This document shows positions 1 through 25,406 of a DNA stretch of 25,876 bases, in pieces. How positions within the stretch are numbered: position 1 is the stretch's first letter; each line of letters starts with the position of its first letter. The DNA is from Nitrospinota bacterium (lineage in GTDB: Bacteria; 2-12-FULL-45-22; JACOWJ01), in the NCBI GenBank assembly GCA_016176845.1, contig JACOWJ010000016.1, forward strand, positions 1 through 25,876. The letters are read 5' to 3'. A program made the position numbers and the translations under genes. The notes below the pieces were generated by a model. It was not told the origin of the DNA and searched no databases. It saw nothing but the letters and a program-made list of their open reading frames with translations.

Positions 1-1
1 G

Positions 2-118
2 CTCGACGGAGACGAGGAGAAGTCAATGGCGAGCGACTACTCCCTCTTCCTGATCCTCAACGCCGACTGGCGGATGCAGACCGTGAAGATACCGCCGGCT
101 CCAGGAAACGCGAGGCTT
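2..118 (+). pseudogene. Possible C-terminal fragment of a glycogen-debranching/isoamylase-type enzyme
   Basis: The plus-strand frame from base 2 is open and reads LDGDEEKSMASDYSLFLILN, then ADWRMQTVKIPPAPGNARLL. The pattern of a short hydrophobic strand, an Asn-Ala, then an alternating strand and a Pro-rich turn resembles the C-terminal beta-sandwich of GlgX/isoamylase enzymes (FLLLLNA...F.LPP). The similarity would end near base 115, where the convergent gspF remnant begins. This is a by-eye resemblance over about 38 residues at the window edge. It could equally be the shadow of a minus-strand gene. Confidence 0.2.
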
Positions 119-124
119 CTAAGC

Positions 125-1384
125 TTACATCCTCCCACCCCGGATGGCCTTTCCCAGGTTGAAGATGGGCAGGAAAAGGCAGATCAGAATGATCCCCACA
201 AGGCCCCCCACCAGGATGATGAGGAGCGGCTCCAGGACGGAGGTGAGGGTGGTGGTGGAGGCCTCCACCTGCTGCTCGTAGAAATCGGCCCCTTTGTTGA
301 GCATTCTCTCCAACTCTCCGGCTTCCTCTCCCGAGTAAATCAGTTGGATGAGGGTCTCCGGAAAGATCCCCTCGGCCCTGAAGGAGTCGGCGATCGAGCT
401 CCCGTTCCGGATGGCATCGATGCTGTTCAGGATGGCCCTCTCCACCACCCGATTCCCACTCGTCTGGCTCACCAACCTCAGGGCCTCCAGGAGGGCCCGG
501 CCCAAGACAAGGTCCCGGATCTCCTGCCTCATCTCCAGCATCTCGATGATCGCCGTGCGTCCGTAATATCCCGTGTTCTTGCACCGACGGCAGCCGGTTC
601 CCCGGTAGAAGAGGACCTCTCCCCCCTCATCGGGCCTGAGCCCCAAGCTGGCGAGCAGTTCCTGGGAAGGGACGAAGGGCTCTCGACAGGAGGGACAGAC
701 CACCCGCACCAGCCTCTGGGCCACCGCCAGGCTTAGGGACGAGCAGACCAGGAAGGGCTCGATCCCCATGTTGATCAGGCGGATCACGGTGCCGACGGCG
801 TCGTTGGCGTGCAGGGTACTGAGGACCAGGTGGCCCGTCAATGCCGAGCGGATGGCCATCTCTGCCGTCTCCAGATCTCGGATCTCCCCCACCATGATGA
901 TGTCAGGGTCCTGACGCAGGATGTGACGCAGGCCGTTGGCGAAGGTGAGGCCAATGCCGGGCCGGCCCTGGAGGCGATCACCGGGCTGATCTCACAGCCT
1001 GTCAGCGCCTTCAGGGAATCAATGGCCAGGGATGTCAAAGGGATCCGCCATGGCCAGGCTGAGCCGCCTTCCCTCCCGGGAGAGGGGGAAGACCTGGTAA
1101 CGGTGCAAGAGCTGCTCGGGGAGGAAGGAAAGCAGCGCGGGGTCTATCTCACCCACACCCCTCTCGAGGTCCAGGCAAGGGATGCCCAATTGAGCCCCTA
1201 ACAGCCGCATGATCGCCATCTCCGAGGCGAAGCCGAGACTCACGATAATCTCTCCCAGCCGCCCCCCTTTTCTCCTCTGCTCGTCCAGGGCCATCTTGAG
1301 CTGATCCTCGGTGACCAGTCCCTCCGCCAGCAGCAGATTCCCCAGCTGGTCATAGCCCAACCGGTATCCGTATCCCTTGCTCAT
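125..1384 (-). pseudogene. Collapsed gspE/pilB - gspF/pilC remnant (type II secretion / type IV pilus)
   Basis: GspE/PilB is the hexameric assembly ATPase and GspF/PilC its inner-membrane platform. Reading leftward from ATG 1384, the first ~120 residues are a GspE N-terminal domain (MSKGYGYRLGYDQLGNLLLAEGLV) ending in MADPFD. The frame then breaks near 1035. The next stretch ([22 protein letters not shown]) continues in another frame to about 965. The original frame resumes at [19 protein letters not shown] with Walker B and His motifs (MVGEIRD, STLHAND) and a tetracysteine zinc site (CPSC...CRRC). The central ~170 residues with Walker A (GPTGSGKTT) are missing. Near base 505 the ATPase C-terminus is replaced in frame by the last ~125 residues of a GspF protein ([24 protein letters not shown], a C-terminal membrane segment) ending at 125. 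It cannot encode a working ATPase or platform. An assembly error is the alternative. Confidence 0.85.
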
Positions 1385-1402
1385 CTGTGTCCATCCTTGT
1401 CC

Positions 1403-1502
1403 ATTTGTGTCAACTTAACTCCTCTGGGAACGCGGGCGTCCCGCCCGCAAAGAGCGGCCAAGATGGCCGCGCTCCCAGCACCAACCTTAAGTTGACACAA
1501 AT
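1403..1502. repeat. 100-bp MITE-like element, family A copy 1
   Basis: The ends are perfect 16-bp inverted repeats (ATTTGTGTCAACTTAA and its complement). The interior carries nested GC-rich palindromes (GCGGGCGTCCCGCCCGC and GCGGCCAAGATGGCCGC). The 10-bp direct repeat ATCCTTGTCC flanks it at 1393-1402 and 1504-1513, as expected for a target-site duplication. It lies between the gspE remnant and the truncated HepT-like gene and is inverted relative to the copies at 2071 and 13766. It encodes no protein. Confidence 0.85.
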
Positions 1503-1735
1503 GATCCTTGTCCGTCAAAATGGAGCTGAAAGCTCTTGACACGAAAAAGGAAATTCCTATACCTTTCAATTAACATTCTTTTAAGAAGGTCTGTATGATA
1601 TCTTGCCATATCCTCGATTTGGTTCTCGAAAAATCTAGCAACCAATTTAAAGATATCTTCATAAGCTGAATATAGATTGTGAAGCTTATAGGCCAAATTA
1701 ATAGTTAAATCTTCATTATAAATATCGCTTTTCAA
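1487..1735 (-). pseudogene. Truncated HepT-like (HEPN-fold) protein
   Basis: The frame reads MKSDIYNEDLTINLAYKLHN then LYSAYEDIFKLVARFF and RYHTDLLKRMLIE. This matches the N-terminal helices of HepT-like HEPN proteins, whose intact members are about 140-160 residues and contain an Arg-x4-6-His catalytic motif further on. That C-terminal half is absent: after about base 1560 the reading becomes unrelated and it stops inside the family A repeat. The frame is open upstream to the AbrB stop at 1762 with no ATG; TTG at 1735 is the first usual start. The AT-rich composition differs from the neighbouring genes and suggests transfer. It was probably co-transcribed with the AbrB gene as a toxin-antitoxin-type unit and is now broken. 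Confidence 0.55.
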
Positions 1736-1761
1736 TGTCGCAATTTTTTTCTCTATAGATC

Positions 1762-1995
1762 TCAGTCACGCTCGGCCGCTTCCCTCCGATCCTTTAGAAG
1801 GGCCTGGAGAAGGGAGGTCTCCCCCTTCAGGATCCCCCGAGATCCCTCAATGGGGTCCTCCATCAAAGGCCGAAGAACGATCACTCCGCCCTCGTCCACA
1901 ATGCTGACCTTGCTTCCCTTCCTGATCCCATACCTTTCTCGGATCTCGGCCGGAATGACCACTTGCCCCTTGGCAGTAGTGATTGATATGGTCAT
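1762..1995 (-). CDS. AbrB/MazE/SpoVT-family DNA-binding protein (antitoxin type)
   Basis: The protein is 77 residues. Its N-terminal swapped-hairpin AbrB domain is clear (TTAKGQVVIPAEIRERYGIR then KGSKVSIVDEGGVIVLRPL). The charged helical tail (SLLQALLKDRREAAERD) is the form seen in antitoxins that bind a toxin partner. The start at ATG 1995 is chosen because GAGGAGG lies about 10 bases upstream on the minus strand; the longer frame from 2061 lacks such a site. Such proteins normally bind their own promoter and a partner nuclease, usually a VapC PIN protein. Here the gene directly downstream is a HepT-like fragment, not a PIN gene. Family assignment is firm; the antitoxin role is inferred. 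Confidence 0.8.
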   Translation of the reverse strand: MTISITTAKGQVVIPAEIRERYGIRKGSKVSIVDEGGVIVLRPLMEDPIEGSRGILKGETSLLQALLKDRREAAERD

Positions 1996-2070
1996 TCTAT
2001 ATACACCTCCTCTAAAGTTACAACTTGCTCCTAGCATATCACCCCGAAGAATCCAGGTCAATTCCTATTC

Positions 2071-2170
2071 ATTCGTGTCAACTTAAGGTTTAATCCTGGG
2101 AGCGCGGCCATCCTGGCCGCTCTTTGCCGGCGGGGACGCCGGCGTTCCCAGGGGTTAGATTGACACGAAT
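2071..2170. repeat. 100-bp MITE-like element, family A copy 2
   Basis: It begins ATTCGTGTCAACTTAAGG and ends ATTGACACGAAT, with internal palindromes GCGGCCATCCTGGCCGC and GCCGGCGGGGACGCCGGC. The flanks ATTCCTATTC (2061-2070) and ATCCATATTC (2172-2181) agree at 8 of 10 bases, which looks like a decayed target duplication. It lies just upstream of the AbrB gene and about 190 bases before the DUF362 gene. Confidence 0.8.
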
Positions 2171-2206
2171 GATCCATATTCAGCAAAAGGGAAAAAGGGA
2201 GAAGGT

Positions 2207-2220
2207 CCGGAAATTTCCGG
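2207..2220. promoter_or_regulatory. Perfect 14-bp palindrome upstream of the DUF362 gene
   Basis: CCGGAAATTTCCGG is fully self-complementary. It lies about 145 bases before the DUF362 start in the only non-repeat part of this intergenic region. A weak -35/-10 pair (TTGGTT, 17 bases, TAGACT) follows just downstream. An operator for a dimeric regulator is possible; nothing identifies the regulator. Confidence 0.3.
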
Positions 2221-2363
2221 TTGGTTTTGGCCCGGGATTTTGATAGACTAGGCGGGTCAAACCACCTCGGCCGACGCGGCCAATTTCGTGAGGCATCAGG
2301 GACAAAGGGCGCGATCCGCGGCTCCCTCATGCCCCGCGGCAACTTTCAAGGGAGGGTCAGGAG

Positions 2364-3680
2364 ATGGCTTCAAAGGTCTACTTTATGGACGATCGGGCCT
2401 CCGGCGTGAAGGAGAGCCTGGTGGCCAAGATGCTTACCGTATTCGATGCTGCAGGGCTCGCCGATACCATCAAGCCGGGCGACTCGGTGGCCATCAAGCT
2501 CCACATGGGCGAGTACAACAACACCGCTTACCTCCGGCCCGTTTACGTGCGGGCCCTGGCGGACAAAATCAAGGGCCTGGGCGGGGAGCCCTTCGTGGTG
2601 GATACGACCACGCTGCTGGGCCTCTACGCCTCCCGGGCCACCGCCGTCGATTACCTGAAGACCGCCGCCCGCAACGGCTTCACCATGAGCACGCTGGGCT
2701 GTCCGGTGGTCATTGGCGACGGCTTTATCGGCAACGACGACGTGCGGGTGGACCTGCCCGAAGGTTTCATCCTCCAAGAACAGTACGTGGCCTCCGCCAT
2801 CGCCCTGGCCGACGCCATGATCGCCCTTTCCCACTTTAAGGGCCATCCGGTTGGCACTTACGGCGGGGCGATTAAGAACATCGGCGTTGGCTGTGCCTCG
2901 AAGCGAGGGAAGTACAACCTGCACCTCTCCCGCCACCCGAAATATGGGTTCCACATGCGCCCTCTCTACCCGGAGCGGTGCAAAGGGCGAAATTGCGCCA
3001 CCTGGCAGACTTGCGAGATCTGCTGTCCCGAGGGGGCCATCCAGATCACCGATACCACCATCAATTGGGACCGCAGCAAGTGCCACGGCTGCTTCGCTTG
3101 CGTGGGGGTGCTCCACTGTGGGGCCATCGAGTTCATCCCCGAGTGGTTCGACGCCACCACCGCGGGCATTGCCGATTCAGCCCGGGCCGCCGTCAAGACC
3201 TTCGCTCCCGGCAAGGTGGGCTTCGTTACCCTGGCGATTGATATCGTTCCCTGGTGCGACTGCGTTACCTTCAGCGACCGGCCCATCATTCCCAACATGG
3301 GCGTCTTCGCCTCCTACGACCCGGTGGCCATGGATACCGCTTGCGTCCAGATGGCCCAGCAGTCCGAGGGGATCCTCGGCTCAGCCGCCGAGGAGCACGA
3401 CGTGATGGCCCCCGGCACGATGAAGTTCGCCCACTGCAGCTCCTGGATGCCAGGCGGGGCCAAGAGCGAGGACGTGCAGCTGAACGCCGGGGTTTACAAC
3501 GGACTGGGCAGCAAGGAGTACGAGCTGGTCGAGGTGGGCAAGACGAAGCTCGCTTCCAACTTCCTCTACGCCACGGAACCGCTGACCCCGCGCTTCGGCC
3601 GACACATGAAGGTCCACCCCGTCTTTCCCGCGCAGGGATTCAAGTGGGTCGAGGACGTGGACCTGACGAAAGTAAGATAA
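2364..3680 (+). CDS. DUF362 iron-sulfur protein
   Basis: The 438-residue protein has an N-terminal DUF362 domain (about 1-200; VAIKLHMGEYNNTAYLRPVY, ALSHFKGHPVGTYGGAIKN). A two-cluster ferredoxin-like insert follows at about 200-255, with Cys206, 211, 217, 220/221 and Cys240, 243, 246, 252 (CHGCFACVGVLHC), enough for two 4Fe-4S clusters. The DUF362 fold then resumes (VTLAIDIVPWCDC, GVFASYDPVAMDTACVQMAQ). The start is supported by AGGGAGG...CAGGAG before ATG. No signal peptide is evident, so it is probably cytoplasmic. The family's biochemical role is not settled; its members are common in anaerobes as putative electron carriers or Fe-S enzymes. It lies 26 bases before the first CoA-transferase, so the two are probably co-transcribed. 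Confidence 0.85.
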   Translation: MASKVYFMDDRASGVKESLVAKMLTVFDAAGLADTIKPGDSVAIKLHMGEYNNTAYLRPVYVRALADKIKGLGGEPFVVDTTTLLGLYASRATAVDYLKTAARNGFTMSTLGCPVVIGDGFIGNDDVRVDLPEGFILQEQYVASAIALADAMIALSHFKGHPVGTYGGAIKNIGVGCASKRGKYNLHLSRHPKYGFHMRPLYPERCKGRNCATWQTCEICCPEGAIQITDTTINWDRSKCHGCFACVGVLHCGAIEFIPEWFDATTAGIADSARAAVKTFAPGKVGFVTLAIDIVPWCDCVTFSDRPIIPNMGVFASYDPVAMDTACVQMAQQSEGILGSAAEEHDVMAPGTMKFAHCSSWMPGGAKSEDVQLNAGVYNGLGSKEYELVEVGKTKLASNFLYATEPLTPRFGRHMKVHPVFPAQGFKWVEDVDLTKVR

Positions 3681-3706
3681 TCCGGGAGATCAGGGGGAGG
3701 AAAGGA

Positions 3707-4948
3707 ATGAAAAAGGAGGAGTTCTACCGAGAGGCCCGCTCCGATATGACGGGCCCCCTCCAGGGGGTCCGGGTATTGGAGGCAACCACCTCCCAGGCCG
3801 GCCCGATTGCCGGGACGGTCCTGGCCGACCTGGGGGCGAATGTGATCAAGATCGATCTGCCGGAGATGGGCGACATCATGCGCCATCTCCCCCCCTTCAT
3901 TGAGGGGGCGCCCAAGCTCAACTCCAGCTGCTACCACCTCAGCATCAACCGCAACAAGAAGAACATCAGCCTGGCGATCAACCGCCCCGCCGGCCAGGAG
4001 GTCTTCCGCAAGCTGGCGGCCAAGATGGACGTCATCGTCCAGAACTTCAAGCCCGGCACGATGGACAAATGGGGCCTGGGCTACGAGGCGATCAAGAAGA
4101 TCAAGCCCGATATCGTCTATGTCTCGGTCTCGGGCTTCGGACAGTTCGGCCCCAACCACCAGAAGCCCGGCTATGACCCCGTGGGGCAGGCGATCGGGGG
4201 ACTGATGAATGTCAACGGCTACGCGGACGGCCCCCCCACGCGCACGGGAAACGCCATGGCCGACAATATCACCGGCTGGCAGGGGGCCATTGGGGCCCTG
4301 GCGGCCCTGCACCATCGACAAATGACCGGAGAGGGTCAGCATGTGGACGTCTGCCTGGTCGATTCCATCCTCTACACCAGCGACTACGGCGTGATGGCCG
4401 CCTCCAACGCGGGTTTCAACTGGAAGCGGATGGGGAGCGGCAACCCGGCCGGCGGCCCCTGCGACGTCTACCGCTGCAAGGACGGCTATGTCTTCATCCT
4501 GGTCCTGATCGATTCTCACCACAAGCGATTCTGGCCGCTCATCGGCCGGCCCGAGCTCTACCAGGACCCCCGGATGCAGACTCCGGTCGCGCGGGCGCAG
4601 AACCTGCCCTTCATCAATCAGGTGGTGGGCGAGTGGACCCAGGACAAGACGGTGGAGGAGGTGGTGCGGCAGCTGGAGGAGGCCCAGCTGGTGGTGACCC
4701 CTATCTTCGATTTCCCCCAGATCGTGCGGAACGAGCACCTGCGGGAGCGGGAGATGGTGACCGAGGTGGAGTACCCCGACGTGGGCAAGCTGACGATCTA
4801 CGGCGTGGCGGCCAAGTTCTCCCGCACCCCGTGCAAGGTCCGAACCCACGCCCCGGCCATCGGCCAGCATAACGAGGAGGTCTTTGGGGAGCTGCTCGAC
4901 CTGGGGGCCGAGGAACTGGCCCAACTGCAGCAAGGGAAGATCATCTAG
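3707..4948 (+). CDS. Class III CoA-transferase (CaiB/BaiF/Frc family), paralogue 1
   Basis: Family III enzymes move coenzyme A between carboxylic acids through an aspartyl-CoA intermediate. This 413-residue protein has the usual family length and all main blocks: VLEATTSQAGPIAGTVLADL near the N-terminus, NRNKKNISL, VIVQNFKPGTMDKWGLGY, and GQHVDVCLVDSIL. Asp186 in MADNITGWQGAIG lies where the catalytic aspartate of formyl-CoA transferase lies. The start at ATG 3707 follows GGGGAGGAAAGGA; the open frame extends much further upstream only as a shadow of the DUF362 gene. The substrate is unknown. The neighbouring paralogue (5379) suggests two related acids or a two-subunit enzyme. Confidence 0.88.
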   Translation: MKKEEFYREARSDMTGPLQGVRVLEATTSQAGPIAGTVLADLGANVIKIDLPEMGDIMRHLPPFIEGAPKLNSSCYHLSINRNKKNISLAINRPAGQEVFRKLAAKMDVIVQNFKPGTMDKWGLGYEAIKKIKPDIVYVSVSGFGQFGPNHQKPGYDPVGQAIGGLMNVNGYADGPPTRTGNAMADNITGWQGAIGALAALHHRQMTGEGQHVDVCLVDSILYTSDYGVMAASNAGFNWKRMGSGNPAGGPCDVYRCKDGYVFILVLIDSHHKRFWPLIGRPELYQDPRMQTPVARAQNLPFINQVVGEWTQDKTVEEVVRQLEEAQLVVTPIFDFPQIVRNEHLREREMVTEVEYPDVGKLTIYGVAAKFSRTPCKVRTHAPAIGQHNEEVFGELLDLGAEELAQLQQGKII

Positions 4949-5108
4949 TACTTAGTTGCGTTAATTCGCGTATAAGAATCCCCATTTCCGTCTAAGCGGG
5001 AATCCAGTATTTCTCTGGATTCCCGCTGGAGTTTACCCCGCACTTGATGCGGGGCAGGAATGACGGAAACCGTCAAAATAACTAACGCTCACTTTTGCAA
5101 ATAAGTAC
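4948..5108. repeat. 161-bp inverted-repeat element overlapping the CoA-transferase stop codon
   Basis: The ends GTACTTAGTTGC (4948-4959) and GCAAATAAGTAC (5097-5108) are inverted repeats matching at 11 of 12 bases. Inside are two hairpins: GCGGGAATCCAG pairing with CTGGATTCCCGC, and CCCCGCACTTGATGCGGGG. The left end overlaps the last base of the TAG stop of the preceding gene. The first ~29 bases recur alone at 14747-14775 with four differences. Confidence 0.7.
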
Positions 5109-5119
5109 CGCTCCAGAGG

Positions 5120-6623: not shown

Positions 6624-6707
6624 CAGGCCGAGCCCGCCGGACACCATGGGCCCTACTTGCAAGAATTATTTTTTTAGGGACTTTCGAAAAATAGATTGGT
6701 CCGAGTC

Positions 6708-6778
6708 GTCATTCCCGCGAAAGCGGGAATCCAGGCAACTCATATCAAAATCTGGATTCCTGCTTTCGCAGGAATGAC
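6708..6778. repeat. Inverted repeat with dRS3-like ATTCCC-N8-GGGAAT arms
   Basis: Two 27-bp arms (6708-6734 and 6752-6778) are complementary at 25 of 27 bases. Each arm is itself a small palindrome of the form ATTCCCGCGAAAGCGGGAAT. Such elements are common between genes in many Gram-negative genomes. Here its right arm marks the point where the minus-strand cupredoxin reading frame stops being cupredoxin-like. Confidence 0.8.
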
Positions 6779-6985
6779 AAACAACGGGCTATTGGGGAAG
6801 GAGCCCTCGCTCGTGAAATTGCGCCCCCAAGAGGTGACAGGGGCTATCTCCCCCGAGTCCCAGCCCCTGGTGTCGCTGGTAATTACATGCGTCACCGCGC
6901 CGTTGTTAACCCATTGGACGTCATCCCCGATACGCACTACAATGAGCTGGGGCGCGAAGGAGAAGTCGTTGATCGAGACCCGGGC
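6779..6985 (-). pseudogene. Cupredoxin (plastocyanin-like) remnant
   Basis: The minus strand reads ARVSINDFSFAPQLIVVRIG then DDVQWVNNGAVTHVITSDTR and GWDSGEIAPVTSWGRNFT. This follows the cupredoxin pattern closely: an I.DF.F.P strand, a Gd.V.W.N.....H.v.SD block containing the first copper-ligand His, then the D.SG.i..G.s...F strand. The C-terminal ligand loop (Cys-x-x-His-x4-Met) is missing because the frame enters the inverted repeat at 6778. No signal peptide or start codon can be placed upstream. Intact members are periplasmic copper electron carriers or nitrite/oxidase-associated proteins; this copy cannot bind copper normally. Confidence 0.6.
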
Positions 6986-7176
6986 TGGGGACGGTGAAAT
7001 CGGCCCGGCTCTCGCTCGGAAGGCCTCCCGAGCCGTCCAAAAGGCGCCCGATGAAGCGGCCTATAGGCTTGACCGAAGTCAACAGTTTTTCGGAGGGTTT
7101 CTCCGAGTCTGGTGAAGCTTTCAGCTTGCCTGTGGCCGATAGATGCGGTATCCTACGGGCAGGGGTAAACTGGTAG

Positions 7177-7277
7177 TTTAATCGCATAGGAATTTCCATT
7201 TTTAAGTGGCTAGAGGCTAGGGGTTTGCAAAAGTTCTTCTTCACTAACCCCTAGTCCCTAATCCCTAACCCCTAACT
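7177..7277 (-). repeat. CTAG-rich dispersed repeat, family B copy 1
   Basis: Read on the minus strand, this is a ~100-bp unit. It opens with GTTAGGGGTTAGGGATTAGG, continues through GGGACTAGGGG and TAGTGAAGAAGAAC, has a complementary arm (CCCCTAGCCTCTAGCC), and ends ATGGAAATTCCTATGCGAT. It is the inverted counterpart of the copy at 10393-10502. The arms can fold into a hairpin, and the unit is full of TAG triplets. Confidence 0.8.
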
Positions 7278-7315
7278 TGAGAGAGGTTTCGAGGGTTTCG
7301 AGCTTCCAGCGAGCC

Positions 7316-7618
7316 ATGCCGAGGATCATCCCTACAGATCGCCATACATTAGATGAAGTTGCCCAGGCCGTGGTCATGGGGGAGCGGGGCTTGGGGCATG
7401 AGTTGGACCGGATCGCTGACGATATGGCCAGGTTGATGCTGAATCGGTTGGCGGCATCTGGTGCCCCTGGCTTTCATCGGGTTGCGCGAGAGCAATGGTA
7501 CGCCCCCCGCCACTGGCAGGCCATCTCAGCGCGTTACAGCGCTGATATGCTGAAGGCGATTCTGTCGCGGGTGGACAAATACCTGGCGGCCTTCGCGCAG
7601 AAGGCAAAGGATGCATGA
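7316..7618 (+). CDS. Small protein of unknown function, upstream partner of a nucleotidyltransferase
   Basis: The product is 100 residues (MPRIIPTDRHTLDEVAQAVV...), mostly helical by composition, with no recognised domain and no signal peptide. ATG 7316 is preferred over the TTG at 7277, which lies in the family B repeat. Its last eight bases overlap the start of the next gene, so the two are translationally coupled. Two-gene units of a small protein and a minimal nucleotidyltransferase are often toxin-antitoxin or abortive-infection modules. By position it is the candidate cognate partner; no sequence motif proves this. Confidence 0.6.
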   Translation: MPRIIPTDRHTLDEVAQAVVMGERGLGHELDRIADDMARLMLNRLAASGAPGFHRVAREQWYAPRHWQAISARYSADMLKAILSRVDKYLAAFAQKAKDA

Positions 7619-8243
7619 GCTTCGTAGCGATGACATGGATGCCTTCTTCCGCGCGTTGGCGAGGAAATTGCCCTGTCGCGTGAAAATTATTGTGACCGGA
7701 GGGGCAGAAGGGCTGCTCCTGGGCTCGACGCGCCCCACCCGCGACATTGACTTCGGCATCCTCCTCCGCGCGGGTCCTGACGAGCAGGCAGCCACCTGGG
7801 AGGCAGTCGAATCTGCCATCATGGAGGCGGCGGAAGAAACGGGCGTAACCGCACAATATGCCCAGGACATCGACCGCTGGTCGTCCGTTGCGGTCCCCCG
7901 ATATGACCTCCACACGCGGTTCTACCGGCGATTCGGGTGTGCCTATGTCCATCTGTTGGAACCAGCGTATTGGGCGGTTTACAAGCTGGCACGCTATCTG
8001 GACGCGGACGTTGCAGATTTGATCGCGGTGTTACGGACGCAGGGAGTGCCACCACGACAACTAGCCAAAGTGTGTGGGAAGGCGTTGCGCTCCAGCCCGC
8101 GATCATCCTCATTATTCCTGTTTCGCCGGCATGTGGAACACTTTTTCCGCGAGCACGGTCCGGCCATTTGGGGTCAAGGCTTTGACCCTTGTCGGGCGAT
8201 CGCCGCTTTTCACCATGCAGCGGGGATCCAGGAGCGGCCCTGA
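7611..8243 (+). CDS. Minimal nucleotidyltransferase-like protein (DUF6036 / AbiEii-like)
   Basis: The 210-residue protein carries the nucleotidyltransferase signature: Gly30-Gly31 in VTGGAEGLLLGSTRPTRDID, then Asp45-x-Asp47 as the metal-binding pair. A downstream helix (YKLARYLDADVADL, near 124-137) matches the KLxR...D..DL motif typical of this superfamily group. Relatives transfer nucleotides to proteins or RNA, and several act as type IV toxins or antibiotic-modifying enzymes. ATG 7611 overlaps the preceding gene by eight bases and follows AAAGG. The pair lies between two inverted copies of the family B repeat, as expected for a mobile accessory module. The fold is well supported; the substrate is unknown. 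Confidence 0.65.
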   Translation: MHELRSDDMDAFFRALARKLPCRVKIIVTGGAEGLLLGSTRPTRDIDFGILLRAGPDEQAATWEAVESAIMEAAEETGVTAQYAQDIDRWSSVAVPRYDLHTRFYRRFGCAYVHLLEPAYWAVYKLARYLDADVADLIAVLRTQGVPPRQLAKVCGKALRSSPRSSSLFLFRRHVEHFFREHGPAIWGQGFDPCRAIAAFHHAAGIQERP

Positions 8244-8302
8244 TCAACTATCCATTTACCAAATGGAAGCCCATGTCGGTCAGGATGATCATTTTTTGTG
8301 CC

Positions 8303-8406
8303 TTCTCAATAAATCGGGGCACAACCGAAAATTCCTCCGGAAGACTTCATATTTTTTCAATGGGTTAGGGGTAGAGGTTAATCGAGTTGCCCCGGATTTT
8401 TGAGAA
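8303..8406. repeat. Inverted-repeat element (TTCTCAA...GGGGCA arms)
   Basis: The left arm (8303-8325) starts TTCTCAATAAATCGGGGCAC. The right arm (8386-8406) read in complement is TTCTCAAAAATCCGGGGCAA followed by C. The arms pair over about 20 bases with small bulges around a ~60-base AT-rich centre. The centre includes GGGTTAGGGGTAGAGG, similar to family B. It lies 60 bases after the nucleotidyltransferase stop. Confidence 0.55.
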
Positions 8407-8694
8407 GATACGAAGAAAGTGTAAATAAGGGAGAAATAACTCAAGAGGCAAAAGAAGGCAAATCAATCGCAAGAAAGTCGATAGTAAAATAAAGCCAAAG
8501 AGGAAAGAAAGAAAAGAAAAACTCGGCCTAACGACGTAATGGCAGCCGCGGCAACCTTTTCCCGGACGGTTGGCTCTCTCCCTGTCACATCTTGCTTTAG
8601 GGTCAGTAGTTCCTGCACGGTCGCTTCCAACCTTTTCTCACTGCCGAGAAAGCAGGTCCCATGAGGCCGAAGTGAATCTGCGAAAGAGAATCGA
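8407..8694. other. Stretch without a convincing gene; possible minus-strand remnant
   Basis: The first ~110 bases are purine-rich and featureless. On the minus strand 8463-8650 stays open and reads SEKRLEATVQELLTLKQDVT then a hydrophobic end (VFLFFLSSLALFYYRLSCD). This could be the tail of a helical, single-pass membrane protein, but it has no start of its own and I recognise no family. No promoter or RNA gene is evident. Confidence 0.2.
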
Positions 8695-9064
8695 GTGCCC
8701 GACAAGAGCTTGAAAGACAGGATTGCCATCGTAGGCATCGGGGAAACCGAATTTGTCAGGGCTTCTGAGAAGAGCCTGGAAGAGCTCGTCATGGAGGCCG
8801 TTCTCAAGGCGATTGAGGATGCAGGCCTCTCGGTGCAGGAAGTCGATGGTCTGGTCACCGATGCCACCATCATGTGGCCGCGGATTAAAGCGGAAGATGT
8901 GGGTCGCAACCTGGGAATAGCGCATCGCACGTTCTCCGCCTGTATGTCGCTCGGGGGCGCGGGGGTAGTGGGTGCTCCCCTGCTGGCGGCTGCCGCGATT
9001 GACCAGGGTCTGGCCAGGAACATCGTGTGCTACTTCGGGGTTGACTGGGGCTCGGCGTCCGGGT
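8695..9064 (+). pseudogene. N-terminal fragment of a thiolase-like (SCP2-type) acyl-CoA acetyltransferase
   Basis: From GTG 8695 the frame reads [20 protein letters not shown], then a typical thiolase helix ([20 protein letters not shown]), and ...[35 protein letters not shown]. This is the first ~123 residues of the SCP2/acetyl-CoA acetyltransferase-like family, whose members run about 380-400 residues. The catalytic His/Cys region is absent. At about base 9060 the thiolase similarity stops and the aldo/keto reductase begins in the same frame. The fragment cannot be an active thiolase. It may still be translated as an N-terminal extension of the reductase, but the reductase has its own ribosome binding site. 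Confidence 0.75.
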
Positions 9065-9084: not shown

Positions 9085-10071
9085 ATGCGACGCGCAAGCT
9101 TGGGGACGAAGGGGCTTACGGTATCCGCGATCGGGCTGGGCTGCATGGGGATGTCACAGTCCTATGGCAAGGCCGATCTTGCCGAGTCCGAACGGACGCT
9201 GCGTCGAGCGGTGGAGCTGGGGATCGACTTTTTCGATACGGCAGACGGCTATGGCTGGGGACACAACGAGCAACTGGTCGGACGGGTGCTCGGCTCGATC
9301 CGCCATGAACTGAAGATTGCCACCAAGTTTGGCATGGTGCGATTGCCGGGGGGCAAACGGAGCGTCAACGGTCGGCCGGAGTATGTGCGGCAAGCGTGTG
9401 ATGCCAGCCTTTCGCGGCTCGGGATGGAGGTGATCGATCTCTACTACCTGCACCGCAAGGACCCGCAGGTAGAGATCGAAGAGACGGTCGGCGCCATGGC
9501 GGAGCTCGTCACGGCGGGCAAGGTCCGGTATCTCGGATTGTCGGAAGTTTCTGCCGCGACGCTGCGCAGGGCCTGCGCCGTGCACCCCATTGCAGCGGTG
9601 CAAAGCGAATACTCCCTCTGGACACGGGACCCGGAATCCGGGGTGCTGCCGGCCTGTCGCGAGCTGGGGGTGGGGTTTGTGCCGTTCAGCCCGTTGGGCC
9701 GCGCGATACTGACCGGCCGCCTGGTATCGACCGAGGGCCTGGACGAGCAAGACATGCGGCGCACCATGCCGCGGTTTCAAGGGGAGAACTTCGAGAAGAA
9801 CCGGGAGCTGGTCGCCCGCGTCTCGGCCCTGGCAGAGCAGAAAGGCTGTACGGCGGGTCAGCTGGCGCTGGCCTGGCTGCTGGCGCAGGGCGACGACATC
9901 GCCCCGATCCCCGGCACCAAGCGCGTCCGCTATCTGGAGGAGAACGCCGCGGCGGTGGACGTGGTGCTGTCGGCGCAGGAAGTGGCGCACCTGAGCGAAC
10001 TGATGGCGCCCGGGGTGGTGTCGGGTGCCCGTTACGCCCCGGAAGGCATGTCCTTGCTGGATCGGGATTGA
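9085..10071 (+). CDS. Aldo/keto reductase (YghZ/AKR13-like)
   Basis: This NAD(P)H-dependent TIM-barrel oxidoreductase has 328 residues, the normal family length. The tetrad is complete: Asp51 and Tyr56 in [18 protein letters not shown], Lys81 in ATKFG, His123 in YYLHRKD. Other conserved blocks are [52 protein letters not shown] and [17 protein letters not shown] 9085 is chosen because AAAGGAGG lies eight bases upstream and the family N-terminus ([19 protein letters not shown]) starts there. The open frame begins 390 bases earlier only because an unrelated thiolase fragment is fused in frame. The substrate is unknown. The gene may have been acquired, since everything around it is fragmentary. 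Confidence 0.88.
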
Positions 10072-10198: not shown

Positions 10199-10378
10199 TT
10201 GCGACCTGTGAGCGCTTCGAGACATTCGCCCATCGGCATCCTGGGGGCCATGCCCGAGGAGACCGAACCCTTCCTGGAGACCCTGGAGGGGAGCCAATCG
10301 CAGCCAGAGGGGAGGTTCCGGTTCCACCGGGGGACCTACGGGGACCGGGAGGCCATCGAGTGCTATGAGCTCCCCTGA
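10199..10378 (+). pseudogene. 5'-truncation product: N-terminal fragment of MTA/SAH nucleosidase
   Basis: TTG 10199, preceded by GAGGAGG, opens a frame reading HSPIGILGAMPEETEPFLET and GRFRFHRGTYGDREAIECYE. This is the N-terminus of 5'-methylthioadenosine/S-adenosylhomocysteine nucleosidase (GIIGAMPEE...). The frame stops after 59 codons, against about 230 in intact enzymes. The rest of the nucleosidase fold, including the C-terminal catalytic Asp, is missing. The family B repeat starts about 15 bases later, so the 3' part was probably lost in a rearrangement there. GTG 10208 is an alternative start. The fragment is not expected to be functional. Confidence 0.65.
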
Positions 10379-10392
10379 GAGGAATCTTAAAA

Positions 10393-10502
10393 TGATCCAG
10401 TTAGGGGCTAGGGATTAGGGACTAGGGGCTAGTGAAGAAGAATTGTTGCTAACACTTAGCCCCTAGCCCCTCAACAATGGAAATTCCTATGCGATAGATT
10501 TA
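10393..10502 (+). repeat. CTAG-rich dispersed repeat, family B copy 2
   Basis: The unit starts TGATCCAGTTAGGGGCTAGG, includes GGGACTAGGGGCTAGTGAAG, then the return arm CTTAGCCCCTAGCCCC, and ends ATGGAAATTCCTATGCGATA. It matches 7177-7277 in the opposite orientation and 20331-20416 in the same orientation. It lies just after the mtnN fragment and ends about 40 bases before the M16 peptidase start. Confidence 0.82.
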
Positions 10503-10544
10503 TCAGGCGGCCTGGCGTTGCGTGGACCAGAAAGGAGGATGGAA

Positions 10545-13706: not shown

Positions 13707-13765
13707 ATTCGTCATCCCAGGGCGGGTTACGAGCTTGTGGAGCCGGGTTAGACCCAACGGCTTTC

Positions 13766-13865
13766 ATTCGTGTCAACTTAAGGTTTAGTCCTGGGAGCGC
13801 GGCCATCCTGGCCGCTCCTTGCGGGCGGGGGCGCCCGCGTTCCCAGGGGTTAAGTTGACCCGAAT
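13766..13865. repeat. 100-bp MITE-like element, family A copy 3
   Basis: It begins ATTCGTGTCAACTTAAGG and ends TTAAGTTGACCCGAAT; the 16-bp ends match at 15 positions. The interior carries GCGGCCATCCTGGCCGC and a second GC palindrome. An exact 11-bp direct repeat, CAACGGCTTTC, flanks it at 13755-13765 and 13867-13877. It lies 48 bases before the activator gene, within its leader. Confidence 0.87.
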
Positions 13866-13913
13866 ACAACGGCTTTCAACTTACAACGCTCAAAGCATGA
13901 GGAGGGTCAGAAG

Positions 13914-17511: not shown

Positions 17512-17736
17512 TTACGATCGCTTCATCCGGTTGTGTTCCATATTGAAAATCATCCTGTTATTCCGATCGAGCATGTCGCACAGCCTTTCCCTCTCTCTCG
17601 TCGTAAGCCTTCGCTCTGCCTTGAGTTGAGCCTCTCTTGCCTTTATCCGGTCCAATCTCTCTTGTAGGATTCTAGCCTCTCCCCTGGTAAGTCTTCCCGA
17701 TGCAATCCCTTGGTGAATTCTATGCTGCTGTCTCTT
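17512..17736 (-). pseudogene. Remnant of a small Arg/Glu-rich helical protein (RIxxGxxxGxLTxxEA family)
   Basis: The minus strand is open for 74 codons ending TAA at 17514-17512. It reads KRQQHRIHQGIASGRLTRGE, ARILQERLDRIKAREAQLKA, ERRLTTRERERLCDMLDRNN and RMIFNMEHNRMKRS. This matches a widespread family of small exported proteins with a RI..G..SG.LT..EA..L half followed by a second LT..ER..L..MLD..S..IY half. Intact members start with a signal peptide. Here a TAA stands directly before the first codon and there is no ATG, so the N-terminus is lost. Codon use and the conserved repeat show the frame is genuine. Its function is not known. Confidence 0.6.
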
Positions 17737-17816: not shown

Positions 17817-17977
17817 CGAATAGATTCGCCCTCGTACATAAGGGAAGCCCTCTATAAGGTTTTATCCGGCCTAAACCGGCATAGCCAGGCAGAGTTGACC
17901 GCCCCCCGAGAATGAAACTGAGCTCCAAAGAGACTCGGGCAATTTCACGGTAAAAAATTTCATTCATGGAGGATCGA

Positions 17978-19177
17978 ATGTCGTACGAAATCCCGAGTAC
18001 TTTTGCCAGGCCCGCACCAGGCTTGCGCATCAAAGAAGGTGCTCCTGCCATTCCCCGGCCGACCAAGGAGGAGATTGCCTCTTTTCCCGAGGAGGCGCGA
18101 AAGCTTCTTGCCCAAAACTGGGGCGCGCAGGCGCCCTTGGTGAAGACGGGGCCATATTCTCTGAAGTGGTTGGAAGGAAGACATTTCCTTCTTGCCGGCG
18201 CCACTGGGCCCGGCCTGGGGGGAGCCCTGGCAACCGCGGTCCTAAACCTTCTTGGAGACTCCGGCAGTCTCACCGTCGTTGCCCGAGACCTGACCCGATC
18301 CATCGGGTACGAGACAGGAGTCGCCATGCAGAGGCAGGCAGAGGAGGCCGGCCTCGGAAAGCGATTCCACTGGCTCAACGACGGCCTGGCTTTGGAGGGA
18401 GAAGAGATCGAGAAGATCGTGTCCGCACTCTGGGAGGGAGGCGCGGATCGTGTGCTCTATATCAATACCGTCGCGGCGGCTAGCTCTGGGCTCCTCCCGG
18501 GTTGTCCCCCGGTGTTCGTAAAGGACGTGGACGAGAAAGGGCTTTTTCAATGGCAGCTCTCCCCCCTCAACGAACGAAGCATCGAGGCCACCCGGTTTAT
18601 CATGGGAACGATGGCGGTCCAGTTCCCCCACGAGCTGGAGAAGACCGGCATTCAGGTGGAAGCGACCGCATTCGCTGACTGGCGGGGCAGCCTGGATCGT
18701 TGCAGCCGAGATCCTGCCGCTCCCGAGTACGGCCGGCAAGGCGCATATTCGACAAGTCTCTATCTGCCCAAGGATATCCTCCAGGAGGCCACTGCCTCTG
18801 CCTATGGATCGGGAAAGATCCTCCTCGATATCTTCTTCCCGATCATGAGGACCCGGGCGCTGGGCTTCATTCCCGGGGGTACGACCATGTCTTGTGTTTA
18901 CAACAACCTGATGAAACGGGAAGGCGTGCGTCGGATCGACGTCCCGGAGTTAGCGTTGGCTATGCTGGACCGGATCGGCAGGGCGATCGACCAGGGTGAC
19001 GACAACCCGTTTCCCCGGCTTGACGCCCACGAGGCGCCGCTTGATTTATGGTTCTGCGAAGTGGTCAAACGCCTGAACGAGGACGAGGAGAGCGAGTTCT
19101 ACTTCAAAAGATGGATCGAAGGCAACTGGCGAGTCCTTGCAAAGGGCGATGCAATGCGCAACTTGCGCTTGAAATGA
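17978..19177 (+). CDS. FabV/TER-like NAD(P)-dependent reductase (SDR fold), divergent
   Basis: The product is 399 residues, the size of FabV enoyl-ACP reductases and trans-2-enoyl-CoA reductases. After an N-terminal ~65-residue extension there is a nucleotide-binding Rossmann start (FLLAGATGPGLGGALATAVL; Gly74, 77, 79, 81). Later blocks are DRVLYINTVAAASSG and TGIQVEATAFADWRGS, then Tyr276-x3-Lys280 in SAYGSGKILLDIFFPIM. FabV proteins normally have Tyr-x8-Lys, and I do not see that spacing. Either this belongs to a related but separate group, closer to ketoreductase domains of large fatty acid synthases, or the active site is altered. ATG 17978 is chosen because GGAGG lies five bases upstream; ATG 17966 would overlap that site. 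The gene is monocistronic behind its own promoter. Confidence 0.5.
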   Translation: MSYEIPSTFARPAPGLRIKEGAPAIPRPTKEEIASFPEEARKLLAQNWGAQAPLVKTGPYSLKWLEGRHFLLAGATGPGLGGALATAVLNLLGDSGSLTVVARDLTRSIGYETGVAMQRQAEEAGLGKRFHWLNDGLALEGEEIEKIVSALWEGGADRVLYINTVAAASSGLLPGCPPVFVKDVDEKGLFQWQLSPLNERSIEATRFIMGTMAVQFPHELEKTGIQVEATAFADWRGSLDRCSRDPAAPEYGRQGAYSTSLYLPKDILQEATASAYGSGKILLDIFFPIMRTRALGFIPGGTTMSCVYNNLMKREGVRRIDVPELALAMLDRIGRAIDQGDDNPFPRLDAHEAPLDLWFCEVVKRLNEDEESEFYFKRWIEGNWRVLAKGDAMRNLRLK

Positions 19178-20312: not shown

Positions 20313-20330
20313 CGGCTTTTAAATTGCCGA

Positions 20331-20416
20331 TGATCAAGTTAGGGGGTTAGGGATTAGGGACTAGGGGCTAGTGAAGAAGAATTTTTGCTAATCCCTAGCC
20401 CCTAGTCCCTTAAAAT
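20331..20416 (+). repeat. CTAG-rich dispersed repeat, family B copy 3
   Basis: It starts TGATCAAGTTAGGGGGTTAG and continues GGGATTAGGGACTAGGGGCT and AGTGAAGAAGAATTTTTGC, with the return arm CCCTAGCCCCTAGTCCC. The terminal ATGGAAATTCC part seen in copies 1 and 2 is missing. It lies between gpsA and larB and could fold into a hairpin. Confidence 0.8.
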
Positions 20417-20457
20417 CGGTGTCCATCTGTGTCTCCAACCAAGGAAACGGCGGTACG

Positions 20458-21225: not shown

Positions 21226-22445
21226 AGATCCTCTATATCGATGCCTTCTCGGGCATCAGCGGGGATATGTTTCTGGGGGCGTTGGTAGACCTGGGCGTGG
21301 ATCTCGCCCAGCTAAAAAACCAGCTGGGCCAATTGGCCCTGCGTGGCTACCAGTTAACCTCGTCGAAGGTCCACAAGAAGGGGCTGGCGGCCACGAAGGT
21401 CGATGTGGAGCTCACGCCAGGGCTCGCCCAGGAGTTCCGCCACTGGCCGGAGATTCGCCCATTGATCTCGGAGAGCACGCTTCCCGAAGCGCTGAAGGCC
21501 GATAGCTTCCGGGTCTTCGAGCGGTTGGTTCAGGCCGAGGCTCGCGTCCATGGGGTTCCGCCGGAAGAGGTCCACTTTCACGAGCTGGCCGTCCAGGACA
21601 CCATCGTGGACATCGTGGGCGCCGTCATCGGAGTCCACAGCCTGGGCGTAGACCGGATCATCTCCTCGCCGCTCAACCTGGGCCAGGGCCGAATTCGAAC
21701 GGCCCATGGGGAATATCCGGTCCCGGGTCCGGCGGTCCTGCAGCTGCTGGTGGGCTACCCGGCCTATTCCACCGACTGCGGCTTTGAGCTGACCACTCCG
21801 ACGGGTGCCGCCATTGCCACCACCCTGGCGGCGGAGTTCGGCCCGCTGCCCGCGATGCGCGTGGCGGGGGTCGGTTACGGAGCCGGCACCCGGGAGCTGC
21901 CCCACTCCCCCAACGTGTTGCGGCTCGTCCTGGGGGAAGCCTCGACCTCCGGGGAGGAGGACCAGGTGATCGTCATCGAGACCAACATCGACGATATGAA
22001 CCCGGAGTTCTACCCCCCAATCATGGAGCGACTCCTGGGGTTGGGAGCGCTGGATGTGGCCCTGACCCCCATCATCATGAAGAAAGGCCGGCCGGGCACC
22101 CGCCTCTCCGTCCTGGCGGAGGAGAAGGACCAGGAAAGGCTCACCCTGGCCCTCTTCGAGGAGAGCTCCACGCTGGGGGTGCGGTTTTATCCGGTACGCC
22201 GCAGGAAGCTTTCTCGCGTCGAGCAGCCGGTCCCCACTCCTTACGGGCCGGTAAAGGTTAAGGTCGGGCTTTCAGACGGCCGGCCTATCCAGCTCGCCCC
22301 GGAGCTGGAGGACTGTTATCGGTTGGCTCGCGAACGCAACCTTCCCCTGAAGGAGATTTACGAGGCGGCCCAGGCAGCGGCTCGGGAGCTATGGAGTAAA
22401 GGGACCCTCCCCGGGAAGCTCCCTTCGGGGCCGGCCGAGGCTTGA
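21222..22445 (+). CDS. larC: Nickel-pincer cofactor nickel insertase LarC
   Basis: LarC inserts nickel into the pyridinium bis-thiocarboxylate precursor in a CTP-dependent step. The 407-residue protein covers both LarC1 and LarC2 in a single uninterrupted frame, so no programmed frameshift is needed, unlike the Lactiplantibacillus plantarum gene. Signatures include YIDAFSGISGDMFLGALVDLG at the N-terminus (listed here in part), the histidine-bearing VHFHELAVQDTIVDIVGAV, and IVIETNIDDMNPEFYPPIME in the second half. It overlaps larB by four bases. LarE, which provides the sulfurs, and LarA are not in the window. Confidence 0.92.
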   Translation: MKILYIDAFSGISGDMFLGALVDLGVDLAQLKNQLGQLALRGYQLTSSKVHKKGLAATKVDVELTPGLAQEFRHWPEIRPLISESTLPEALKADSFRVFERLVQAEARVHGVPPEEVHFHELAVQDTIVDIVGAVIGVHSLGVDRIISSPLNLGQGRIRTAHGEYPVPGPAVLQLLVGYPAYSTDCGFELTTPTGAAIATTLAAEFGPLPAMRVAGVGYGAGTRELPHSPNVLRLVLGEASTSGEEDQVIVIETNIDDMNPEFYPPIMERLLGLGALDVALTPIIMKKGRPGTRLSVLAEEKDQERLTLALFEESSTLGVRFYPVRRRKLSRVEQPVPTPYGPVKVKVGLSDGRPIQLAPELEDCYRLARERNLPLKEIYEAAQAAARELWSKGTLPGKLPSGPAEA

Positions 22446-22467
22446 AGCCAACGGGGATCGAGGAGAA

Positions 22468-22496
22468 TTGCAACCTTGGTGTGAAAGTGTTATATA
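22468..22496 (+). promoter_or_regulatory. Sigma-70-type promoter for the OmpA-like gene
   Basis: TTGCAA (22468-22473), 17 bases, then TATATA (22491-22496). Transcription would start near 22503, giving a ~185-base leader with a CCCCG...CGGGG hairpin at about 22637-22657. Confidence 0.5.
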
Positions 22497-22688
22497 GAAC
22501 GTGGAGAGTTCGATGCCACGTTTATCGGGGACTAGTTTGAAAGCCCAATTGGGCCGAGCGCCGGTCGCAAGAAACGATGAACATTTTTTGGCCAAGCTGT
22601 ACCAATAGCCGAAAGGTGGGTTTAGATCCTTAGCCCCGGTTTTTCGTTCGGGGAAGAGGATGGTTAACCTTCAGAGGAGAAAGGGAAG

Positions 22689-23405
22689 ATGAGCGTGCTG
22701 AAGAAGATGACGGCCCTGACCCTGGTGGCCAGCCTGGGAGGTGGCGGTTGCGCCAACTGGCAATGGGGCAAACGAGAAACGGGGGCGGTGATCGGAGCTG
22801 CCGCAGGGGCTGCGATCGGGGCCGCGGGGGCCAAGCGGCAAACCAGAGGGGCCCTGGTCGGAGCCGCCGCAGGGGCCCTGGTGGGCGGCCTCATCGGGTG
22901 GTACCTGGACAACCAGCAGAAGGAAATGGAACAGTTGGCCAGCCAGATCAATGCCCAGCAGCAGACTGCACGACAGCAAGATCAATCCCCCATCAGAGCG
23001 GTACGGCAGGAGGATCAGCTGGTGATCATTATGCCCAGCAGCACCCTCTTCGACACCAATTCCACCCAGCTGCATCCCGGCGCCCAGAACAGCCTGCGAG
23101 AGGTGGCCGATATCCTCAAGCGCTATCCCCACTCCGATGTGATCATCGGGGGGCACACCGACGGCACGGGGACTTCGACTTACAACCAACGGCTCTCCGA
23201 GGAGCGGGCTGATGCGGTCCGGGCCTTTCTGGTGGCCCAGGGGGTAGACCCCAATCGTCTTTCTGCCCGCGGATATGGGGAGACCATGCCCGTTGCCAGT
23301 AACGAGACCACTGCCGGGCGGCAGCAGAACCGCCGGGTGGAGCTTCAGGTTAAGCCTCGGGCGGATGAGCTGGTCAAGGAATACCCGTCCGGCCCTCCGG
23401 CCTGA
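22689..23405 (+). CDS. OmpA-family peptidoglycan-binding protein with glycine zipper (probable lipoprotein)
   Basis: The 238-residue protein has an N-terminal export signal ending at Cys21 in LVASLGGGGCANW, an imperfect lipobox. A glycine-zipper membrane segment follows (GAVIGAAAGAAIGAAGA and GALVGAAAGALVGGLIGWYL, about 32-73). Then comes a Gln-rich linker and a C-terminal OmpA domain (about 103-222). The OmpA domain has STLFDTNSTQLHPGA, the diaminopimelate-binding pattern GHTDGTGTSTYNQRLSEERA, and NRRVEL. It should anchor the outer membrane or an envelope complex to peptidoglycan, like YiaD/Pal-type proteins. The start is supported by AGAGGAGAAAGGG. The gene has its own promoter and a hairpin terminator. 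Confidence 0.88.
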   Translation: MSVLKKMTALTLVASLGGGGCANWQWGKRETGAVIGAAAGAAIGAAGAKRQTRGALVGAAAGALVGGLIGWYLDNQQKEMEQLASQINAQQQTARQQDQSPIRAVRQEDQLVIIMPSSTLFDTNSTQLHPGAQNSLREVADILKRYPHSDVIIGGHTDGTGTSTYNQRLSEERADAVRAFLVAQGVDPNRLSARGYGETMPVASNETTAGRQQNRRVELQVKPRADELVKEYPSGPPA

Positions 23406-23438
23406 AAAGGGAAGAGAAGTTTCCCGGGGTGCGAGTTT

Positions 23439-23466
23439 AAGGGGTGAACCGAATGGTTCACCCCTT
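23439..23466 (+). terminator. Hairpin terminator of the OmpA-like gene
   Basis: A perfect 12-bp stem (AAGGGGTGAACC with GGTTCACCCCTT) encloses a GAAT loop 34 bases after the stop. The T-tract is short (CCCCTTTGTGC), so termination may be partial or bidirectional. Confidence 0.65.
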
Positions 23467-23605
23467 TGTGCATCTGATTTAAAACGTTAGCAACCCAGAA
23501 AGGGTTTCCTTGCCCATCTTCGCTCAAAGAAGGGTTTACCGTGAAAATGCCAAAGTCTTGCTGAAGTCCATTTTCATTCTCGGGAGCGGCCAGCTCAGCC
23601 TGGCC

Positions 23606-24727
23606 ATGTCGGTTAGGCTTGCCACACTGCTCGCGGCCCTGCTTGCCGGTTTTTCGATGATGCCCCTCCCCTTGGAAGCAGACGATGGTGCTCGATGGCT
23701 CTCCCAAGAGGTCATTCAAAGGGTGGAGGCCACGATCCTGGAATCTCGAAAGGCCAGAGCCAGGACGGAGGCGAAGATCAATCTGCTCAAACTCCTCCCG
23801 TTGAAGCACCCGCAACCGCCTGAGGGGTTTGCAGTGGCCCTCACGATGATCGACTGGTACAATGCGATCTACCTTTTAAAGATAAAAGGACCGACGGGGG
23901 GCTACCAGGTCGTATGGAACAGCGAGGACGAGGAGCTCCCCCTCCAGAAAGCCGGGCTTCTGGTCAAGGGCTCCTTGATTCAAGAGGACTTCTCCCTGGA
24001 GGACGTAGATGACGACGGAGCGAAGGAGATCTTTTTCGTCTGGCACAAAGGCGGAGGAGAAGGCACGGTAGAAGGAGATTACACGACCTTTTGTCTCTAC
24101 GACCTCCAGAAGAAAGCGCTGTTCGCCATACGGTTCGAACGACAAGCCTGGCCTTATCCGCTCTACCCCATTCCGAAGTTCTCGGCCAATGCCAACTTGC
24201 CCCAAAACAAGACTTACCGGAGTTGGTTGGAGAAGAAGGGCTACGATCTGGGGCTCATCGAGAAGACCACCATCGATCCCGATAACCCCGCCTTCGCCTT
24301 AAGCCTCTGGTTCGCTCAGAACGGGCCCATGAAGAATGGCCCGGTTCAGCTCCGGGAGTATCCTGGCCCGATCCTCTGGGGGACGCCCCTGGAGGCCGAG
24401 GTGTCCGATCCGGGAATCACTTGGAAGGCCTTTCAGAGGGGACCGGTCCTCGGCTACGATCGGGCCAGAGAGGTCTATTATGTGGTCTATGCCCCGGAGC
24501 GCATGCAGCACTGGGCTAAGGCCCTGGTGGCGGATAGCCAATTCCTGTGGATCGGGACTCGGGGCGATGGGCTCATTCGATACGACAAGGCTGCCAAGAC
24601 CTTGAAGCAGATCTTGAAGGCCGGGCCCGTACAGCTGCCCCAATCGATCTCTTCTTTAAGGGTAAAAGGCGACAAGCTCATCATCAACCGCACTCTCACT
24701 CTTTCCCGGGAGTCTCTTTCTCATTGA
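23606..24727 (+). CDS. Exported protein of unknown function
   Basis: From ATG 23606 the product is 373 residues, with a signal peptide (MSVRLATLLAALLAGFSMMP...LEA) and a soluble mature part. I recognise no family with confidence. A DVDDDGAKEIFFVWHKGGGE segment near residues 130-150 looks like an FG-GAP/VCBS-type acidic loop. A SQFLWIGTRGDGLIRYDKAA segment near residues 310-330 resembles a single two-component-regulator-propeller (Reg_prop) strand. These suggest beta-propeller pieces and a periplasmic location. The frame is open back to TTG 23510, but those 32 codons lack a signal-like start and a ribosome binding site. No strong site precedes 23606 either. It probably belongs to the envelope like the OmpA gene upstream, but a terminator separates them. 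Confidence 0.6.
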   Translation: MSVRLATLLAALLAGFSMMPLPLEADDGARWLSQEVIQRVEATILESRKARARTEAKINLLKLLPLKHPQPPEGFAVALTMIDWYNAIYLLKIKGPTGGYQVVWNSEDEELPLQKAGLLVKGSLIQEDFSLEDVDDDGAKEIFFVWHKGGGEGTVEGDYTTFCLYDLQKKALFAIRFERQAWPYPLYPIPKFSANANLPQNKTYRSWLEKKGYDLGLIEKTTIDPDNPAFALSLWFAQNGPMKNGPVQLREYPGPILWGTPLEAEVSDPGITWKAFQRGPVLGYDRAREVYYVVYAPERMQHWAKALVADSQFLWIGTRGDGLIRYDKAAKTLKQILKAGPVQLPQSISSLRVKGDKLIINRTLTLSRESLSH

Positions 24728-24759
24728 GCGCCATTCTCGGTAAGATCCTCACTCTTCTG

Positions 24760-25082
24760 GTCCGTGGTGCACCTCCCTCCGGAGAATCGCTGGATGGATT
24801 CGTCGACTCGCTCCTTCAGGAGTTCGAGAACTGTCGCCCGGGTCTTTCGGACGACGTAATCGAAAGGAGGAGAGCGGAGGCGGAGAACTTTATGAAACAG
24901 CGCTTTGCCGAGCGCGGCTTCAAGGTCGAGAAGTTGTTGCTCCGGAACTACAAGTACGCGGAGAATTACGAGGGGTCCCTCCGGGAGAAGAAGGTCGCCG
25001 TTCAGCTTACCAAGAAGAACCAGATGGAAAGCCTGGTGAACGAGGAAAAGGCCAAACTGAAGCAAATCGAGTCCTCGGGCAA
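24760..25082 (+). pseudogene. C-terminal fragment of an SPFH/band-7 (stomatin/prohibitin-like) protein
   Basis: The frame reads VIERRRAEAENFMKQRFAER, GFKVEKLLLRNYKYAENYEG and LREKKVAVQLTKKNQMESLV, then a charged coil to KLKQIESSGNA. This matches the end of the SPFH domain and the start of the coiled-coil tail. The N-terminal membrane anchor and first beta-strands are missing. The ~35 residues before this (LLVRGAPPSGESLDGFVDSL) are not clearly family-like. The frame carries on past 25082 only as unrelated sequence. Confidence 0.6.
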
Positions 25083-25406
25083 CGCCTCCATTTCGGGATC
25101 TTCGAGAAGCGCGGGCATCAGGAGATCTATCAGCCCGGCGGGGTCTACTTCTTTCTTCCGATCGTAAACAGTTGGAACAGACTTCCCATCTCACAGCAGA
25201 ACCTGTTGATGACCGCCAATTCGAAAGAAGGGGACCGCCCCGTTCCGGACGACGTCACGTTCAAGACCAAAGATGGGAACAACGTCCATATCGACGTGAA
25301 CGTAATGTGGCAAATCGACCCTAAAAAGGCGGGGAAGATTGTCTCGAACGTGGGGACGTCCATTGACGAGATCAAGGAGCGCCTCGTCCGTCCCATCTCC
25401 CGTTAA
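25083..25406 (+). pseudogene. N-terminal fragment of an SPFH/band-7 protein
   Basis: In a second frame the strand reads HFGIFEKRGHQEIYQPGGVY, FFLPIVNSWNRLPISQQNLL, VPDDVTFKTKDGNNVHIDVN and VMWQIDPKKAGKIVSNVGTS, ending EIKERLVRPISR then stop. This is the classical first half of a band-7 domain (QPGTYFFLP...W......Q.L.MT, F.T.DG..V..DV...W.I). The membrane anchor expected before it is replaced by the end of the other SPFH fragment. The domain is cut at RPISR, just before the part the upstream fragment would supply. SPFH proteins form ring-shaped membrane scaffolds; neither piece is expected to work. Confidence 0.65.

Follow-up and report, generated by a model that had tools for sequence, protein, structure and literature searches.

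Bacterial pseudogenes arise by truncation, by frameshift, and by gene fusion through deletion, as reviewed in PMC11078800. The gene fragments described below are of this kind, with homology over part of a protein, frameshifts, and in-frame fusions alongside genes that are intact; nothing sets them categorically apart, and the permuted order of the SPFH remnants is a small oddity. Among short mobile repeats, MITEAba12 (PMC6382973) is 111 to 114 bp long, has terminal inverted repeats and 9-bp target duplications, and occurs in many copies. The repeat R1 is likewise short (102 bp), with terminal inverted repeats, 9- to 11-bp duplications, and many copies; it differs in that no parent element was found for it in its 68%-complete genome, that its duplications are mostly 10 bp, and that it has a GC-rich palindromic core.

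The window analyzed here is an entire contig (C21) of 25,876 bp, from a MAG of 1,531,706 bp in 61 contigs that is 68% complete. Controls came from the same genome (39 sampled stretches, ~660 kb, plus the window) and were used instead of a phylum comparison, for which there was one other genome, of a different family. A search with LarC for relatives of the region gave a best identity of 49%, in other phyla, which is useless for synteny; because nothing closer than this was present in the named genomes and the phylum was represented by one other genome, comparison with a near relative was ruled out.

Gene remnants and intact genes in the window

The sequence-only reading had counted at least eight protein fragments, and approximately eight genes are indeed broken. 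Partial-length homology, not explained by a contig end, was found for gspE, gspF, and the HepT-like, thiolase, mtnN, and SPFH fragments; the similarity of the cupredoxin-like fragment was weak (E value of 3e-4), and the small LT..ER protein piece was judged broken only from a reading of its translation.

The C-terminal third of gspF (positions 128 to 502, reverse strand; T2SSF profile, residues 285 to 404 of a 405-residue GspF) is fused in frame to a C-terminal piece of gspE (476 to 979, reverse strand). The latter corresponds to residues 375 to ~551 to 588 of GspE relatives, also matches PilB/GspE in the PDB, and is without the Walker A region and the last ~35 residues. An N-terminal gspE piece (1031 to 1384, reverse strand; residues 12 to 140 of a 577-residue GspE, positions 1 to 51 of 90 of MshEN) is followed by a frameshift and an internal deletion: positions 1363 to 1031 encode residues 12 to 120, positions 1041 to 970 encode residues 117 to 140 in a different frame, and residues ~140 to 375 are absent relative to homologues. 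All of these gspE and gspF pieces are collinear on a single strand, and the residue mapping indicates a frameshift, a deletion that took the Walker A region, and a deletion fusion of gspE and gspF.

The HepT-like fragment (1565 to 1756, reverse strand) retains the N-terminal half of the family (PF20797, positions 2 to 45 of 110), and its homology ends at a remnant similar to the tail of repeat R2 (1546 to 1575). Directly upstream lies an intact, orphan AbrB/MazE-type antitoxin gene (1765 to 1995, reverse strand; Pfam and sequence inspection) without a partner toxin, the gene for which appears to have been lost just past its start. Elsewhere in the window, positions 7277 to 8243 hold two small overlapping genes. 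A nucleotidyltransferase-like motif was seen in the second (weak match to AbiEii, E value of 0.005), and no family was found for the first; this couple is perhaps an undescribed toxin-antitoxin pair.

The N-terminal third of a thiolase/lipid-transfer protein (8695 to 9060, forward strand), comprising by homology the first 115 to 120 of ~390 residues, runs in frame into an aldo-keto reductase gene (9085 to 10071, forward strand), which appears intact by Pfam, homology, and sequence and has its own ribosome-binding site. The mtnN fragment (10199 to 10375, forward strand) encodes the first 46 to 56 of ~230 residues. Similarity of the cupredoxin-like fragment (6795 to 7054, reverse strand) stops ahead of the C-terminal copper-ligand loop, and the startless LT..ER piece (approximately 17514 to 17734, reverse strand) has an in-frame stop directly upstream. 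Two SPFH pieces on the forward strand match the same 380-residue relative (the L265 ORF) in reversed order, residues 194 to 250 (24877 to 25047) lying upstream of residues 61 to 167 (25086 to 25403; Band_7); the pieces would stem either from a pair of genes in tandem or from a rearrangement. Judged from the missing catalytic parts, namely, the Walker A region and the copper loop, the function of the products was probably lost.

The sequence-only reading had proposed a check for intact versions elsewhere in the genome. These were found for HepT, with four full-length copies at other places; GspE paralogues are present but only ~50% identical, thiolase has one distant relative, and no further SPFH, mtnN, or cupredoxin relatives were found elsewhere in the 68%-complete genome. 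The genes gpsA, larB, and larC are intact within the window, where no tRNA or Rfam matches were found. A 403-residue protein encoded at 17966 to 19177, enoyl-reductase-like by eye, had no Pfam or NCBIfam match.

Distances between fragment ends and repeats

Repeats were defined by self-comparison of ~660 kb of the genome plus the window, and the list for the window was supplemented with three hand-picked repeats, including those at the HepT and cupredoxin ends, so that it was biased toward the case made by the sequence-only reading. Thirteen breakpoints were placed, mostly to within ~10 to 20 bp and some more loosely. R2 is palindromic, with at least 40 copies spread all over the genome and no clear target duplications at these copies; self-comparison located three in the window (7174 to 7280, 10394 to 10503, and 20332 to 20416). 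An inverted-repeat element seen in the sequence (GTCATTCC...GGAATGAC; 6703 to 6780) adjoins the cupredoxin-like fragment, and an ACCTAAC-type low-complexity repeat found by self-comparison (25402 to 25469) lies at the end of the second SPFH piece. Copies of an additional repeat family, with 27 to 37 matches in the sample, abut two genes at their 5' ends (17869 to 17956 and 23528 to 23618). A further interspersed repeat, which matches seven other places in the sample, lies at 8298 to 8410, downstream of the gene with the nucleotidyltransferase-like motif.

Four fragments had been described as stopping in or close to repeats, and taken literally this is correct, with distances of 1 bp for HepT, 15 bp for cupredoxin, 27 bp for mtnN, and 0 bp for the second SPFH piece. 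The proximity is not above chance: a repeat was present within 30 bp of 4 of 13 breakpoints, compared with 168 of 840 ends (20%) of genes that appear intact in the genome sample outside the window (P = 0.31) and 21% of random noncoding positions (P = 0.30). No repeat was found within 100 bp of the other nine breakpoints (gspE, gspE/gspF, thiolase, VapC-like, the SPFH 5' end and inner junction, and LT..ER). The enrichment of breakpoints at repeats by which scars of repeat-mediated deletion are recognized was absent in this comparison, and such deletion, one of the two accounts offered by the sequence-only reading, is not supported as a general cause of the fragments; at the R1 copy next to HepT and gspE, it is contradicted by the perfect 9-bp duplication. 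Because the repeats at the HepT, SPFH, and mtnN ends carry no readable target duplications, these ends were not individually cleared, and repeat-mediated deletion may have acted at the SPFH end, at the HepT end bordering the R2-like remnant, or at mtnN.

Terminal inverted repeats and target duplications of R1

R1, the 103-nt repeat, is a 102-bp noncoding element bounded by terminal inverted repeats (CATTCGTGTCAACTTAA and its inverse). Approximately 16 near-complete copies and several pieces are scattered all over the genome. Among the 13 copies tested, which had both ends present and were 102 to 125 bp long, 8 were flanked by perfect target duplications of 9 to 11 bp, and several others had near-perfect ones. 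The length of the duplication was chosen for each copy, which gives some freedom, but a perfect 9- to 10-bp match is expected by chance at a rate of the order of 1 in 10^5 per copy; a shuffle test of summed matches used a fixed length of 9 bp and understates the duplication signal. In the window, the copy at 1402 to 1503, which separates the HepT fragment from gspE, has a perfect 9-bp duplication (atccttgtc), and the target-duplication scan gave an imperfect one (7 of 9) for the copy at 2070 to 2171 and a perfect 10-bp one (caacggcttt) for the copy at 13765 to 13866. As a short noncoding element with terminal inverted repeats and target-site duplications, R1 is a MITE, which arrives by transposition. 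The perfect duplications at the copy next to HepT and gspE show that it was inserted by transposition and that nothing has been lost at its edges since.

Twelve R1 sites were emptied in silico. Most had no gene across the insertion point, and two insertion points lay 10 to 17 codons ahead of the end of an open frame. Excision of R1 and one duplication next to HepT and gspE joined both remnants in a single open frame that spans 211 codons, which was judged to be due to chance because the element plus its duplication measures 111 bp.

A parent transposon with R1 ends was not found in the 68%-complete genome, where the transposase search covered PF01609 only. The only DDE_Tnp_1 (IS4-type) transposase hit, on contig C17 and below the cutoff, was rejected as the parent since R1 ends were absent there. 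R1 was not found in plasmids, its end pairs were not found in sampled stretches of other genomes, and a literature search for its ends gave no match. The ends presumably resemble those of IS231/IS4-type elements. We consider it possible, though rather doubtful, that R1 is an undescribed MITE family, active now or recently in a barely sampled phylum, and concentrated in this contig along with mildly faster decay.

Comparison of the window with the rest of the genome

The coding fraction of the window, estimated with a codon-usage gene finder, was 75.3%, compared with a mean of 79.2% (standard deviation, 6.3) in 34 other stretches, placing it at the 24th percentile. Repeats made up 4.3% of the window and 3.8% overall, and short coding-like segments numbered 3.5 per 10 kb, compared with ~4.3 overall. 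Truncated Pfam matches were found in three of eight short segments in the window and in 3 to 8 of 50 elsewhere (P = 0.03 to 0.17), where 50 of a random 60 segments were scanned and, by our own reading, three were clearly truncated and five were doubtful. Truncated genes at other genome sites include DsrE and two histidine-kinase pieces. The number of truncated pieces expected per window was 0.6 to 1.6, with a post hoc probability of three or more of 0.02 to 0.21. Local densities exceeded an even spread for R1 (three copies; P = 0.002) and R2 (three copies; P = 0.03), also post hoc. Any local excess of truncated pieces is weak at most and was identified post hoc. The proposal of a region tolerant of decay amid intact genes stands as far as decay among intact genes is concerned, with special tolerance at best weakly supported. 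A count of broken genes by homologues in a home-made set of ~1,650 proteins was set aside. The proportion of places flagged was 5.2% here, compared with 6.2% in a genome of the same order and 5.5% in a complete genome that is unrelated; the noise of the method swamps any such difference, and most of the window fragments were missed.

Discussion

The fragments are probably (roughly 0.8) ordinary pseudogenes in noncoding DNA that is shared with repeats, without any association between the two. Separate frameshifts and small deletions would have left the fragments in a genome that appears somewhat loosely packed (~79% coding in the sample), with ~4% interspersed repeats. With repeats and remnants occupying the same noncoding DNA, some fragment ends would fall near a repeat by chance, and R1 copies would arrive by transposition, duplicating 9 to 11 bp of target. 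The deletions themselves, we infer, occurred separately from one another and without the participation of repeats. Recombination between direct copies of a repeat, removing gene parts and leaving one repeat per scar, would have had many R1 and R2 copies as partners and could account for the four fragment ends within 30 bp of a repeat. It is unlikely, given proximity no greater than that of intact gene ends, the perfect duplications at the R1 copy next to HepT and gspE, the lack of a repeat at most breakpoints, including both in gspE/gspF, and the presence near repeats of a broken gene on one flank only.

A chimeric or misassembled metagenome contig, in which the fragments would be false joins, has a very low probability. 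The MAG is fragmented (61 contigs) and 68% complete, and such joins could explain the in-frame fusions and the reversed order of the SPFH pieces, but misassembly would be expected in repeats and the joins lie mostly outside them, the gspE/gspF pieces are collinear on one strand, and the same repeat families occur throughout the contig and the genome. Equally improbable is a local hot spot of decay, for example, an insertion-rich area or a genomic island of some age. The slight surplus of truncated pieces and R1 and R2 copies would fit it, as would the turnover of toxin-antitoxin genes suggested by the lone antitoxin and the HepT piece; against it, the window is ordinary in coding density, in repeat fraction, and in how many short coding segments it has, tRNA and Rfam matches are absent from the window, and gpsA, larB, and larC are intact. 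Ordinary pseudogene formation in shared noncoding DNA is the reading that we prefer.

Adjacency of gene fragments to repeats is no proof of repeat-driven deletion unless it is compared with the proximity of intact genes to repeats. The comparison made here clears away a tempting but unsupported account of deletion by repeats and yields, as a by-product, a MITE family (R1) whose target duplications can be read, in a phylum of which hardly any members have been sequenced.
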